A stretch of DNA of 64,000 bases, taken from NCBI RefSeq assembly GCF_003664005.1, contig NZ_RCCJ01000001.1, positions 682,001 to 746,000 on the forward strand. The letters run 5' to 3'. Both the position numbers and the translations under genes were made by a program. The notes below the pieces were generated by a model. The model had not been told where the DNA came from. It worked only from the letters and a program-made list of their open reading frames with translations, and made no database searches. Source of the stretch: Hydrogenivirga caldilitoris. Lineage in GTDB: Bacteria > Aquificota > Aquificia > Aquificales > Aquificaceae. Numbering within the stretch: the first letter of the stretch is position 1; each line of letters begins with the position of its first letter. This document shows, one piece after another, positions 58,698-64,000 of the stretch.

Positions 58698-60056
58698 TCA
58701 GAACTCAAGCTGGAGCCTTGCGAATATCTCGTTGACTGAGGATTTATCTACACCGTTGTAGAGGTACTTTCCGGCATCACCAATGGAAGCTACAGCCCCG
58801 CCGAATTCAAGGTTCATGTGCTTTCCGGTGTTATAAGTAAGCTGGACTCCAAACTCCGTTCCGAGGTTTTTTCCAGCGTTTGTATCAATGGTGTTGTCTC
58901 CATCTGAATCGTACCACATATCCTTCGCAGACCTAAACCAGCCACCTACGATTTGAGCGGAGAGTTTCTCCATTATAGGAACGTCAATCTTCGCCTGTAG
59001 GGTTATAAGACCATGTCCCCTGTTGCCCGGCTCAAGACCGAAGTCGTTAACATCTGAAGGTCCGTGAGGAGTGAAGATGTAAGTGTAAGCCCAATAGCCG
59101 GCGGTCCCAAGAACGTTATGGGTTGTAATGAATCCTCTTTTTGAATCGGTGGTCTCTTTACCGCTTGAGTAAACACCAAGAACGCTTACATTAGCAGGTC
59201 CGACCTTGGCAGAAGGCTCCAGCCTGACAAGGAACCCGCTGTTATCTGTGTTTCCTACCTTACCTGTGTTGTAAAGAACTACCCCGTGAACTTTGAACAT
59301 ATCTAAGTCAGCGGTTGCATGGGCACCGAGCCAAGTCTGGTTGAGTTTGGTTGCAGGAGCGTCGTTCCCAGGATTATTATCGCTGTCTATACACTCCTGG
59401 GTTGTACCAGGGATACAAACCTTTCCATAAGCTCCGTACCAGTGGACACCTACGTCCACTCCTCCCGCTTTGGTGTTCAGGTCAAGGACTATGAAGTGTT
59501 CATCCTGATCCTTGTTTATCTGGGAGTTGTTTATGAGAGCCTGACCTTCCACAAGCCTTACGTAGGCGGCTCTCCAGTTAAAGGTTCCAGTGCTTCCTGC
59601 ATAGGCTATTCCTCCTATGTTCAGATCCCAGTCTGCGGAGAAGAGCATCTGGTCAACCTGGTCGTTGGCTGGGAGGATACCTGCCATTACCTTACCGGGA
59701 CCGGCGGGGAAGTAGAGGTATCCGTACCTTATTCCCCTTGCCTGAAGTCTGTTGAAGGCGTTAATAGCGTAAACTCCACGGGGATCACTGGATGCCGGAG
59801 AAGAGCCTCCCCATCCGCCTCTATACTCAATCTGGATGAAACCACCTACGTTCTCCTCGGTGTGGACGTCTAAGTTGAGCCTTAACCTCTGTCTAAAGAA
59901 GTCGTACTGCTTTTCAGAGCCTATGTTTGAGTTGTTGTACATGACCCTGTACTGGATGCCAAAGTCAATGTTGGCATCGCTGAGCTTGACTGCATAAGTT
60001 GGTGCTGAGAGAACAGCTGTGGAGAGCACCGCTCCTAAAAGCAATTCCTTTTTCAT
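58698..60056 (-). CDS. Outer-membrane porin-like protein next to arsenite oxidase genes
   Basis: A 452-residue protein with a signal peptide (KKELLLGAVLSTAVLSAPTYA) and a 16-20 stranded beta-barrel pattern ending LQLEF with a C-terminal Phe. Features such as FFRQRLRLNLDVHTEENVGGFIQIEYRG and YLYFPAGPGKVMAGILP suggest the alginate-export/OprP-like porin group. It sits directly downstream of aioA, separated by a terminator, and may admit arsenite or release arsenate, which is inference. GGGGGTG lies upstream of the ATG. Confidence 0.8.
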   Translation of the reverse strand: MKKELLLGAVLSTAVLSAPTYAVKLSDANIDFGIQYRVMYNNSNIGSEKQYDFFRQRLRLNLDVHTEENVGGFIQIEYRGGWGGSSPASSDPRGVYAINAFNRLQARGIRYGYLYFPAGPGKVMAGILPANDQVDQMLFSADWDLNIGGIAYAGSTGTFNWRAAYVRLVEGQALINNSQINKDQDEHFIVLDLNTKAGGVDVGVHWYGAYGKVCIPGTTQECIDSDNNPGNDAPATKLNQTWLGAHATADLDMFKVHGVVLYNTGKVGNTDNSGFLVRLEPSAKVGPANVSVLGVYSSGKETTDSKRGFITTHNVLGTAGYWAYTYIFTPHGPSDVNDFGLEPGNRGHGLITLQAKIDVPIMEKLSAQIVGGWFRSAKDMWYDSDGDNTIDTNAGKNLGTEFGVQLTYNTGKHMNLEFGGAVASIGDAGKYLYNGVDKSSVNEIFARLQLEF

Positions 60057-60113: not shown

Positions 60114-62732
60114 TTAGCTAAAGTCATTGATTGGCAAGAACGAAGTGTACTTGGCAACGTGTTCAAGCTTGCCCGAAAGTTTCCTTATCCCTACCCTTGA
60201 AGCCTTGTACCAAGGTATCGTCGTCTTCGGGTCGGTGTAGCTCGTTGTCAGGTGGTTGAGAGACTCGTGGAACCTGTACATGAGTCCGTAAACCGTTCCC
60301 GGAGGCGGAGAGTCATTCACGTACACAACGGCAACGCAGTTACCCTCCATGTTGTAAACCTCTACAAGGTCTCCGCTCTTAATACCGAGTCTCTCCGCAT
60401 CTCTGTAGTTCATCTCTATGTATGGCATAGGTATGGTGAAAACCTTCTCGGGCAGGTGTCTGTCATGGTATCCCGTTTGCCAGAATATCTGAGTCCTTCC
60501 GTTGGTGAACCAGAAGGGGAACTTCTTATCGTTTCCGTGCTCCAGATACTTGACTATCTGAGGTGGATAGAACTTCTTCGGGTCTGGTTCCCACGGGTCC
60601 GTTCCGTACCACTTCCACTTTCCATCGGGTGTGCCAAACTTGTAGGTGTATCTTCTCTTGGTTCCGACTGGTTTTCCGGTCCTGGGGTCTATCCTTACGG
60701 GCGTTTGTATGCCCTTTTGTCCCAGTTCTCTAAGGAGATCATGGGTTACACCCCTGTAACATTCTGCCGGAAGCTTTGCCTCGTCTTCCTCTGAAACCCT
60801 GTTGTCTGGAAATTCTTCCCATCCGTCCTTGAATACCTCTGCTGCATCCTTCCAGTCCATTCCGGAGCAGTACTTGGCTTCCTCATAATTGCCCTCTGCT
60901 TCGTAGAGCTCTTTCATCCTTGTGGCTATCCTTCCCCATATCCACCAGTCTGGTTTTGCATCCCCAGGAGGGTCCATGAACTTGTCGGCTATTCTCAGGA
61001 GTCTGGAGTTACAGTTGATGTAAGTGGTAGGTGTCTCACCCCAGCCGGCTGCGGGTAGCACAAGGTGGGCATCCCTTGCGGTCTCAATCATATACATGTT
61101 AACTACTACCAGAAAGAGTCCGTCAGTCTTTCCAAGACCTTCCAGTATCCTCTTCGCCCTCTCTTCGGAACCGGCAGGTTCACCTGCTGCGGCAGCGTAT
61201 TCGGATAGGAACTTTGTCAAAGACAGAGTTCTCTCATGAACCCTCTTCTTATACTCCTGCGCGTTGGGGGTTGAGAGGTAAGGGTCTGTTCCTGATACGA
61301 AGTAAACTTTAGACCTGAGATCCCACTTAACGTACTCGTCTATGTTGGGAGGGGGTCCTCCAGCGTATATGGACCCGACCAAGTTGGCTCTGGACTTTCC
61401 GTGAGGTCTTACGTAACCTTCCTGGTGTCCCCCCTGTCTTCCGCAACCCGTTCCGGGTTTTCCGTAGTTTCCTGTAAGAGCCGCTATCTGAGCAATAGCC
61501 GCTATGGTGTCGTAGTTCTTGTAACCCCATATAACGCCTTTCTCGTATACGGTTAGCGTTCTTCTCCTATGACCTCCCTTCTTGGGTTTGGCTATCCACT
61601 CAGCCGCTTTCTCTATGTCTGCCTTTGAAACTCCTGTAAGTCTTTCAACCCTTCTCATGAACTCTTCATAGGGGACGTCAAGCATAAGAGACTTTTTCTT
61701 GTAGTCTTCAAAGGTTTTCAGGTCTGTCCTCTTCCTTATAAACTCCTCATCGTGCCACCCTTTCTCGTAGATAGCCCTGGCTATGGCGTTAGCAAGGACG
61801 TAGTCCGTTCCAAGATTTGGTCTCAGGTGAAGAACCCTTCCGGGGGCAACATCCTCAGCTACAGTGACAGACGCTGTCCTTCTGGGGTCAACAACTATGA
61901 GCCTCGCAGGTTCGGCAGGTTCACCCCTGTTGTACTCCTTCTTCTTTTCCTCAATAGTCGCTCCCTGTATGTTGGGAAGCATGTGCTCGGTGTAAAAAAC
62001 TGAAGCGGTCTCAAAGGAGTTTGCTCCCCAAAGAACTATCGTATCGGCAAGCCTTGCGTCCTCATAGGTGTAGTTGAGCTCGTGGGCTCCTCTCTCCCTC
62101 TGACCCCATACCTCGGAGTTGTAGGCTGGTCTGTTGTGGATGGAGAGCATCCTCGTCCCCACCGCTATGAAGAAGAACTTTCCAACAGCCCAGTTGTCCT
62201 CAAATCCAGACCCTGAACCTCCATGGTCGTGGATCTTCATCGCTATGGAGTCAGGTCCCCAAGAGTCCTTAACGCCCTTCACAACCCTCGCAATTATGTC
62301 TATGGCTTCGTCCCAGCTTATAGGTTGGAACTGGTCTCCGACCCTTAGGAGGGGATAATGGAGCCTGTTTCTCGTTGGTTTTGTAGGGGCATAAGTAGCT
62401 TGGGCGTTTGTACCACCTCTTATGGAGTAGTTCCCTCTGTTTATAGGTGAGGCTTTAGAGGGTAGGACTAGGACGTTGTACTGTTTTCCATCGTGGTCTG
62501 TAACCACAGTGTGCATGTTTTCAACCATTGCCTGTCCTTGAAGCGCAACCTGTTGCTTGGTGAAATCTATTCCAAGAGCGTTCTCGTTTGGCTTTGGTCC
62601 TCCGTCCTTCCCTACGGGCCACTTGTAAACGTCATAACCGCATCCTACGTTACAGTACTGACAAACAGCGTTAAACTTCTTGGCATCCTTAGGTGGTATA
62701 GGTAACTTGTCCTTCCTTGCAAAAAGTGCCAT
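60114..62732 (-). CDS. aioA: Arsenite oxidase large (molybdenum) subunit
   Basis: An 872-residue DMSO-reductase-superfamily protein. N-terminal CQYCNVGCGY gives three cysteines (24, 27, 31); the position of the fourth ligand is Ser103 in NYSIRGG, so it holds a 3Fe-4S cluster, as in AioA rather than nitrate reductase or formate dehydrogenase. HNRPAYNSEVWG and GCGRQGGHQEGYVRPHG match the His/Glu and Arg/His active-site segments of AioA. It oxidises arsenite to arsenate in the periplasm, using the molybdopterin cofactor. No signal peptide: it is exported with AioB through Tat. AGGAGGTGTGAG lies before the ATG. Confidence 0.96.
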   Translation of the reverse strand: MALFARKDKLPIPPKDAKKFNAVCQYCNVGCGYDVYKWPVGKDGGPKPNENALGIDFTKQQVALQGQAMVENMHTVVTDHDGKQYNVLVLPSKASPINRGNYSIRGGTNAQATYAPTKPTRNRLHYPLLRVGDQFQPISWDEAIDIIARVVKGVKDSWGPDSIAMKIHDHGGSGSGFEDNWAVGKFFFIAVGTRMLSIHNRPAYNSEVWGQRERGAHELNYTYEDARLADTIVLWGANSFETASVFYTEHMLPNIQGATIEEKKKEYNRGEPAEPARLIVVDPRRTASVTVAEDVAPGRVLHLRPNLGTDYVLANAIARAIYEKGWHDEEFIRKRTDLKTFEDYKKKSLMLDVPYEEFMRRVERLTGVSKADIEKAAEWIAKPKKGGHRRRTLTVYEKGVIWGYKNYDTIAAIAQIAALTGNYGKPGTGCGRQGGHQEGYVRPHGKSRANLVGSIYAGGPPPNIDEYVKWDLRSKVYFVSGTDPYLSTPNAQEYKKRVHERTLSLTKFLSEYAAAAGEPAGSEERAKRILEGLGKTDGLFLVVVNMYMIETARDAHLVLPAAGWGETPTTYINCNSRLLRIADKFMDPPGDAKPDWWIWGRIATRMKELYEAEGNYEEAKYCSGMDWKDAAEVFKDGWEEFPDNRVSEEDEAKLPAECYRGVTHDLLRELGQKGIQTPVRIDPRTGKPVGTKRRYTYKFGTPDGKWKWYGTDPWEPDPKKFYPPQIVKYLEHGNDKKFPFWFTNGRTQIFWQTGYHDRHLPEKVFTIPMPYIEMNYRDAERLGIKSGDLVEVYNMEGNCVAVVYVNDSPPPGTVYGLMYRFHESLNHLTTSYTDPKTTIPWYKASRVGIRKLSGKLEHVAKYTSFLPINDFS

Positions 62733-62749
62733 GACTCACACCTCCTTTA

Positions 62750-63244
62750 TTATTTAGGGAGAAGGTTTATAGCCCTTCCCCATACAAGACCTTCAACAGC
62801 TTCAGCGTAAATGTTTCCCCTTCTGTCAACGCTCAGTTTTATCTGCGGTAGCCACTCGGAAGCGTGACCCTGGTAGGTCTGTCCGTTCTTAGCCGGGTCA
62901 AACATTGAATAGTGACACTTACATACGAATCTCCCCTTAGAGTATTGCAGGGGGCATCCCTGGTGAGTGCACAGGGCAGAGAAGGCAACTATGTCCTTGT
63001 CCGGTCCAACCCCACCTATGGCTGGCCTTCCTATCTTTACAAGAACTGCGGGCGAGTTCTCATCAGGATAGTTGAACATTATTGGCTTGTGAGCTTTTAC
63101 ATCTCTTATGCTGGCTATCTTCTTCTTTCTATAGGGTAATGAAGGCGCCACACATGCCTTTGCGAACCTGTGGCTGACAAGCAGTGTTCCAAGAACTATA
63201 GAGCCCCCTACAAAGGTCCGTCGTGACACGTTGAGCTTCAACAT
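62750..63244 (-). CDS. aioB: Arsenite oxidase small (Rieske) subunit
   Basis: A 164-residue protein with a twin-arginine signal (SRRTFVGGSIVLGTLLVSHR) and a Rieske 2Fe-2S domain with CTHQGCPLQYSKG and CKCHYSMF (C-x-H and C-x2-H). It takes electrons from AioA and passes them to cytochrome c or azurin-type carriers. GGAGGTGGAGC precedes the ATG at 63244; a longer frame upstream is not needed. Tat machinery for it is encoded at 0.5-1.6 kb. It is the first gene of the operon. Confidence 0.96.
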   Translation of the reverse strand: MLKLNVSRRTFVGGSIVLGTLLVSHRFAKACVAPSLPYRKKKIASIRDVKAHKPIMFNYPDENSPAVLVKIGRPAIGGVGPDKDIVAFSALCTHQGCPLQYSKGRFVCKCHYSMFDPAKNGQTYQGHASEWLPQIKLSVDRRGNIYAEAVEGLVWGRAINLLPK

Positions 63245-63278
63245 GCTCCACCTCCTCAAAATGTTTCTCATGATCTAT

Positions 63279-63294
63279 GGCAAGAATCGTGCCA
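63279..63294 (-). promoter_or_regulatory. Sigma-54 promoter of aioBA
   Basis: On the minus strand TGGCACGATTCTTGCC (63294-63279) matches the -24/-12 consensus TGGCAC-N5-TTGC exactly. The transcription start would be near 63268, giving a 5' leader of about 24 nt to the aioB ATG with its ribosome binding site. No -35/-10 pair was seen here. Confidence 0.85.
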
Positions 63295-63371
63295 AAAAGT
63301 GGGATACAGGGAAAAGTGCTGAGGCTCAGAGACTATAAGACTATAGTTATTTTCTTATGTATATCTTTGGA

Positions 63372-63409
63372 TGGTCAAAATCTGAGCATCTGTGGTCAAA
63401 ATCTGACCA
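63372..63409 (-). promoter_or_regulatory. Two dyad repeats, likely enhancer (UAS) for aioBA
   Basis: Two 17-bp dyads with a 21-bp period: TGGTCA-N5-TGAGCA (63372-63388) and TGGTCA-N5-TGACCA (63393-63409). They lie about 104-141 bp upstream of the predicted sigma-54 start, the usual place for enhancer-binding protein sites, and just beyond the end of the Cys-rich gene. An AioR-like activator is the natural candidate. Confidence 0.75.
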
Positions 63410-63411
63410 CT

Positions 63412-63906
63412 TTACTCCTCTTCGTAGGAATAAACACAGTGGGGTAAGTTCCTGATCTCTTCAGATGAGGCTCTTATAAGAGCTTCGCCTCTTGACTCCT
63501 TTATAACATCAAATTTTTTCTTGAGGAGGTTTATACAGAACTCTTCCATTACCTTTACCCTGTAAGTCTTACTTTCAACCTTCTTCTTTTTGCTTTTGTC
63601 CTTTTCTTCCTTTATGGGATTTTCGGATACAGGCTTGCAGCTGAGATTATTGATAAGGAAAAGCTCTCCAGACCTTAGCTGGCAAGCGAGAGCATCGTAT
63701 TTTGGACATCCGGTGGAGGGTTTTATGTAAAGCTTGTCTTCCATAACCTCCAACTCGCATTTTCCACAAACCTGTGGAACCAGGCTCTTTTCTGTTATGA
63801 CAGACTTGCAGTAGAGAACGTTCTCTACAACCTCATAACATACCTTTTTAACCTCTACAGAACGGGAGAAAGACAGAAAGTAAACCAGGAGCAACAGGAC
63901 AAACAT
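63412..63906 (-). CDS. Secreted cysteine-rich hypothetical protein
   Basis: A 164-residue protein with a signal peptide (FVLLLLVYFLSFSRS). The mature part has nine cysteines, including VCGKCELEV and CPKYDALACQL, and a Lys-rich linker (KDKSKKKKVESK). No family recognised. It lies between aioB and a divergent secreted-protein gene; the cysteines could bind arsenite or form disulfides, which is speculation. TAAAAT about 6-8 nt before the ATG and no ribosome binding site. Confidence 0.7.
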   Translation of the reverse strand: MFVLLLLVYFLSFSRSVEVKKVCYEVVENVLYCKSVITEKSLVPQVCGKCELEVMEDKLYIKPSTGCPKYDALACQLRSGELFLINNLSCKPVSENPIKEEKDKSKKKKVESKTYRVKVMEEFCINLLKKKFDVIKESRGEALIRASSEEIRNLPHCVYSYEEE

Positions 63907-63924: not shown

Positions 63925-64000
63925 ATGGTTCTTCTTATAGTTCTGTTTTTAACCTTGGGACTTTCCTTTCCTCAGGAGGTTTACCGTTTTGGTTTTACGG
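63925..64000 (+). CDS. Secreted protein, N-terminal fragment (possible AioX/PhnD-type binding protein)
   Basis: The frame ATG at 63925 encodes MVLLIVLFLTLGLSFPQEVY followed by RFGFT, and continues off the window. The first 15 residues are a signal peptide and QEVYRFGFT resembles the mature start of PhnD/AioX periplasmic binding proteins. In several bacteria aioX-aioS-aioR precede aioBA and activate it through sigma-54; the position here fits but 25 residues cannot prove it. Confidence 0.4.
   Translation, partial: MVLLIVLFLTLGLSFPQEVYRFGFT

Follow-up and report, generated by a model that had tools for sequence, protein, structure and literature searches.

Control of arsenite oxidase by AioXSR and sigma-54 is a known type of regulation in the Proteobacteria, where the sigma-54 box, RpoN and the AioR footprint have all been shown by experiment (PMC2848651, PMC5335332, PMC3834237). 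The AioR footprint there is GTTCGGATTTCCGAAC, with the consensus GTT-N10-AAC (PMC5335332), and two tandem palindromes were found 100–200 nt upstream in 12/12 aioXSR-linked operons (PMC3834237; we found no Aquificota names in that paper). The Aquificota are important arsenite oxidisers of hot springs (PMC3665934), and according to a study of Thermus it is still unclear how the non-proteobacterial AioA cluster is regulated (PMC8963470). We describe here the leader of aioB, positions 63244-63411 of a 64,000-nucleotide stretch of Aquificota DNA (the window; G000:C1:682001-746000), and predict, with a probability that we put at about 0.88, that it is an arsenite-inducible sigma-54 promoter of aioBA run by AioX, AioS and AioR through a pair of dyads. 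This regulatory reading is well supported, and it would extend the experimentally proven AioXSR/sigma-54 control to deep-branching, thermophilic bacteria; its operator, its AioR lineage and its distribution across the phylum mark it as a variant of the known kind.

The aioB leader and the genes around it

The leader and its surroundings contain the following features (window positions unless a contig is given).

63280..63294, minus strand: sigma-54 -24/-12 element TGGCACGATTCTTGC (read from sequence; genome search; same element in Aquificota aioB promoters)
63372..63388, no strand: downstream enhancer dyad TGGTCA-N5-TGAGCA, predicted AioR dimer site (sequence, genome search, composite scan, matrix)
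63393..63409, no strand: upstream enhancer dyad TGGTCA-N5-TGACCA, predicted AioR dimer site (sequence, genome search, composite scan, matrix)
63251..63257, minus strand: Shine-Dalgarno GAGGAGG of aioB (read from sequence)
62750..63244, minus strand: aioB, Rieske small subunit of arsenite oxidase with a Tat-type signal (TIGR02694, 195 bits, cut-off 95.65)
60114..62732, minus strand: aioA, molybdopterin large subunit of arsenite oxidase (TIGR02693, 1074 bits, cut-off 359)
63412..63906, minus strand: Cys-rich ORF of 164 aa with a signal-like N terminus, between aioX and aioB (no family match)
63925..64000, plus strand, on to G000:C1:746770: start of aioX, arsenite-binding periplasmic protein (family and structure matches, pocket residues)
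G000:C1 746767-748455, outside the window, after aioX: aioS
G000:C1 748433-749761, outside the window, after aioS: aioR

Read on the minus strand, 63294-63279 is TGGCACGATTCTTGCC, and the exact TGGCAC-N5-TTGC that the original prediction reported in the aioB leader is present, 35 bp upstream of the aioB ATG. The C of its -12 GC is at 63280 and the predicted +1 at about 63268, so that the predicted leader of the aioB transcript measures about 24 nt. For comparison, the aioBA start mapped in Herminiimonas is 26 bp ahead of the start codon, behind the same element (PMC2848651). The original prediction had implied that AioB starts at 63271, and this needs correction: the start codon is most likely the ATG at 63244, since it is preceded by GAGGAGG at 63251-63257 and opens a Tat-type signal, MLKLNVSRRTFVGG, and 63271 is disfavoured because it lies at or upstream of the predicted +1. 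Within the window the sigma-54 string is the sole match at no more than one mismatch, where 2.2 would be expected, and it is therefore not significant alone. The 1.75-Mb genome holds eight exact copies, and its one-mismatch counts do not exceed those of a reversed control. Six of the eight exact copies lie in a short ORF or in none and stand 30–76 bp ahead of a downstream ORF. Other exact elements of the genome (L024, L026, L027 and L028) are found ahead of long ORFs that apparently encode an FAD/NAD reductase, a membrane protein, a thioredoxin-reductase-like protein and a secreted protein, and such elements are candidates for a small RpoN regulon.

The two dyads, 17 bp each, read TGGTCAAAATCTGAGCA (63372-63388) and TGGTCAAAATCTGACCA (63393-63409) on the plus strand and start 21 bp apart, as the TGGTCA-N5-TGA(C/G)CA pair had been described. 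Measured from the predicted +1, their centres lie 112 and 133 bp upstream, in agreement with the earlier figures of about 110 and 130 bp; measured from the ATG, the distances are about 136 and 157 bp. No other exact TGGTCA-N5-TGASCA is present in the window or in the whole 1.75-Mb genome. A matrix trained only on the dyads of other genera, with the window's own genus left out, ranked these two sites first and second over 84 kb, at 20.9 and 19.5 bits, the next site scoring 11.1; the pair together reaches 40.4 bits, and nothing in 3.5 Mb of Markov-simulated sequence exceeded 19.6. Two near-matches elsewhere, at 888717 (beside cas genes and CRISPR-looking repeats) and at 76503 (within a coding ORF), are single and partnerless and were taken as chance.

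The first gene of the operon under this promoter is aioB. A gene for an outer-membrane porin-like protein (window 58698-60056, minus strand) lies less than 60 bp behind aioA in the same orientation and may be a further member of the operon. Divergent from aioBA is a run of overlapping or abutting genes, aioX-aioS-aioR (745925-749761), which encode in that order a phosphonate-binding-like protein (281 aa), a PAS histidine kinase (562 aa) and an NtrC-type regulator (442 aa); the sigma-54 activator that had been expected near the gene starting at 63925 is thus found, and the three genes adjoin each other and aioBA in the linkage that characterises AioXSR. The genome has seven strong sigma-54-activator genes, and the one in this run is 3 kb from the promoter. 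By domain scan AioR consists of a receiver (PF00072), a sigma-54-interaction domain (PF00158) and a Fis-type HTH (PF02954). Against the solved AioX structures this AioX has a match of 1.4e-41, and against ArrX one of 1.1e-39; its matches to ordinary phosphonate/phosphite binders are far weaker. The residues that form the AioX pocket (NT-26 numbering) are Tyr88, Cys106, Tyr131, Ser161, Ser163, His192 and Asp210 (PMC5908839), and all seven, including the arsenite-binding Cys106, are kept in the AioX encoded here and in 8/8 other correctly read Aquificota AioX proteins (the G048 row, which had been translated in a wrong frame, was left out of this count and of the AioX tree); PhnD is without them. 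The genome also carries rpoN, as predicted (PF04552 at 979127-979585, E 2.6e-48). Since rpoN/sigma-54 is found in 112/136 genomes of the phylum, the presence of sigma-54 in an Aquificota genome is unsurprising.

The stop codon of the 164-aa ORF lies 2 bp from the upstream dyad. Its protein matched nothing in Pfam or NCBIfam, and the ORF is present in some relatives and was not found in others; it is a neighbour and not a required part of the switch. ORFs of this type (window 63412-63906, minus strand; L072:2712-3197; L098:9257-9700; L092:7811-8155; L078:3074-3418) separate aioX from aioB in the window's genus, whereas in Sulfurihydrogenibium-like loci they are found downstream of aioA, and the protein is a candidate for a new aio-associated periplasmic protein.

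In the mechanism that we propose, periplasmic AioX would bind arsenite through its conserved cysteine and signal to the membrane kinase AioS, which would in turn phosphorylate AioR, an activator of the NtrC type with an AAA+ domain. Two AioR dimers would dock on the paired dyads on the same face of the helix (21 bp being two turns), and AioR would then assemble and loop over about 90 bp to the sigma-54 RNA polymerase at the -24/-12 element. ATP hydrolysis by AioR would melt the promoter, a transcript with the leader of about 24 nt would issue from about 63268, and arsenite would in this way induce aioBA.

Recurrence of the layout in the Aquificota

We found aioB in 17/136 Aquificota genomes, in four of them by distant or weak matches only. 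AioB-like matches in genus g10 (G058-G060) are distant and are without the promoter layout, and they were set aside. A composite scan for dyad, dyad and sigma-54 box, run over 304 kb of aio loci and reversed controls with thresholds set after the motif was known, recovered 13 aioB promoters and two others, and the reversed 304-kb control gave 0 matches. The expectation that the dyad would be found before aioB in other Aquificales is thus borne out: dyads and sigma-54 box recur together ahead of aioB across the phylum. The geometry is fixed, the dyads being 20–22 bp apart; the first dyad starts 115 bp ahead of the sigma-54 box in one neighbour genus as in the window's own, and 90–103 bp ahead of it elsewhere. 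Searched at no more than one mismatch, the paired motif occurs in 6/136 genomes of the phylum, always ahead of aioB. The promoter layout stays constant though the genes beside it have been rearranged: an ORF stands between aioX and aioB in the window, G010 and G015; aioX is directly divergent from aioB in G011; aioR lies upstream on the same strand in G052, G054, G101, G103 and G029; and aioX is elsewhere in the genome in G036. The second dyad is only a half-site in G101, G103 and G029. G101 and G103 belong to genus g20, and the locus compared, that of G101, is more than 93% identical to Sulfurihydrogenibium yellowstonense.

Two of these genomes show the layout in a further setting. G052 has a second full dyad-dyad-sigma-54 promoter (L090:12904-13040), identical in its 90-bp geometry to the same genome's aioB promoter and placed ahead of a gene for an FAD pyridine nucleotide-disulfide oxidoreductase just past aioA; we predict that this gene is an additional AioR target. 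In G039 (L097:3340-3640) a single dyad pair has a sigma-54 box on either side, the two pointing divergently towards aioB and a 129-aa ORF, and judged by its sequence looks like a shared, bidirectional enhancer. The aioA of G039 (L097:2405-2414) appears as two overlapping match pieces, apparently in different frames (a frameshift or an assembly error).

Not all of these loci have a recognisable sensor. In G029 (a complete genome), G101 and G103 (L093, L092, L091) AioR is encoded beside aioB and a genome-wide search found no close AioX, and in G039 no AioX was detected in the genome, though the dyads are kept. Since these loci retain the promoter, arsenite sensing cannot be identical everywhere.

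The dyads and who reads them

The alternative that survives best, although we consider it improbable, accepts the sigma-54 promoter and gives the dyads to another protein, either one of the six other strong sigma-54 activators of this genome or a separate repressor or activator, for example of the ArsR type. The dyads of G039, in whose genome no AioX was found, fit such a reader, and in Thiomonas the region upstream of aioB is also bound by AioF, a member of the ArsR family (PMC7533571). Against it, AioR, where present, adjoins aioB in most Aquificota loci, and does so in three gene orders; the recognition helix of 10/10 Aquificota AioR proteins has the core SRNTL, close to the GRNTL of E. coli NtrC; and the dyad motif is confined to aio promoters, apart from two further ones close to aio genes.

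We give clearly less credit to the idea that transcription of aioBA reads through from the 164-aa ORF, or begins at a sigma-70 promoter, and that the dyads are terminator hairpins of that ORF. The ORF shares the strand of aioBA and stops just short of the upstream dyad, and a weak sigma-70-like match (9/12) overlaps the dyads; however, no terminator-like sites were found, promoter-like matches are at chance level, and the dyad arms are 6 bp long and are without a T-run. Moreover, G011, in which aioX is directly divergent and an ORF of this kind was not found, keeps the dyads. Finally, a chance match of the sigma-54 string beside an unrelated inverted repeat might be entertained for the string alone, which occurs in the genome at background frequency with controls as numerous as matches, but on the sequence comparisons this reading is already refuted by cross-genus conservation, with a composite layout that has zero control matches and with the out-of-genus matrix ranks and the simulation described above.

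Descent of the regulator and comparison with known systems

The original prediction offered a choice between an AioR circuit that is ancient and one that was transferred together with the enzyme. In the tree the Aquificota AioR proteins form one clade (100/100) and proteobacterial AioR and ArxR another (100/100), and the Aquificota and proteobacterial AioR clades were not recovered as sisters. Forcing them into a joint clade gave an AU p of 0.043 with 23 rows (Aquificota and proteobacterial AioR) and of 0.059 with 34 rows (ArxR included). In BLAST comparisons no proteobacterial AioR scored as high with the AioR encoded here as did NtrC, AtoC and other generic regulators. An origin of the Aquificota AioR as a transferred proteobacterial AioR is supported neither by the tree, nor by BLAST, nor by the recognition helix. 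The Aquificota enzyme groups with those of Thermus (62% identity) and Acidiphilium, and no AioXSR was found at the aio loci of either. In G068 (L095:5040-10376) the fragment of AioA belongs to the proteobacterial type (57% identity to Hydrogenophaga, 45% to the AioA of the window), while AioR and AioX group with the Aquificota and the leader has Aquificota-like dyads, so that enzyme and regulator are apparently of different origin. The regulator and its operator thus go with the phylum and not with the enzyme.

The choice as first put was therefore too simple. Transfer of the circuit together with the enzyme is unlikely, because the AioR clade is separate and the nearest outside enzymes are without AioXSR; a very old split still fits, and either this or independent recruitment fits better than joint transfer. 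Tentatively, and at somewhat less than even odds, arsenite oxidase may on at least two occasions have come under sigma-54 control that senses arsenite; in the Aquificota a sensor of the AioX family would have been joined to an NtrC-type two-component pair other than that of the Proteobacteria, and the same layout would have re-evolved with a new operator, independently of the descent of the enzyme. Such recruitment is a serious but unproven possibility. How old arsenite sensing is, and how mobile, becomes a concrete question where regulator and operator follow the phylum and one genome's enzyme is of the proteobacterial type, and an exact operator and promoter, with further predicted targets, are now open to test.

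The closest described system is AioXSR/RpoN of the Proteobacteria (Agrobacterium, Pseudorhizobium NT-26, Herminiimonas), which likewise has an AioX with the same pocket, a histidine kinase and an NtrC-type AioR, and likewise an exact TGGCAC-N5-TTGC, there about 50 bp before the ATG, with its two palindromes upstream (PMC3834237, PMC2848651). Among the proteobacterial leaders that we examined the box is exact in NT-26, Ensifer and Hydrogenophaga and departs from it at two positions in Bosea and Acuticoccus. GTY-N10-RAC is present in 5/5 aioXSR-linked leaders, and where two sites of the GTT-N10-AAC type were found they lie 33 bp apart. The operators differ: that of the Aquificota is TG(G/C)TCA-N5-TGA(G/C)CA, 20–22 bp apart, and that of the Proteobacteria GTT-N10-AAC, about 33 bp apart. 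A search for GTY-N10-RAC found none in any Aquificota aioB leader, which rules out the published proteobacterial operator here, and we therefore class the promoter as a variant. The recognition helices differ too, SRNTL in the Aquificota as against (S/T)R-x-x-LWEK in proteobacterial AioR and ArxR, and the AioS proteins of the two groups are alike only in parts. The ArxXSR and ArrX modules (arx, arr) likewise combine an AioX-family binding protein with the same pocket (one ArxX has Thr for one pocket Ser), a kinase and a sigma-54 activator, but they serve enzymes of the ArxA/ArrA type and their regulators group with proteobacterial AioR, not with that of the Aquificota. NtrC, NtrC1 and NtrC4 share their domain order with Aquificota AioR, and E. 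coli NtrC shares the RNTL of the helix. The E. coli NtrC site is itself a 17-bp dyad with an N5 centre, a layout that resembles the Aquificota operator, although the half-site is another one and the Aquificota AioR is linked to an arsenite sensor and to aioBA. The predicted switch is thus a phylum-specific version of AioXSR/sigma-54 control with its own AioR lineage and operator, and docking sites unlike the known proteobacterial ones suggest that the lineage arrived at its own wiring of this kind of circuit.
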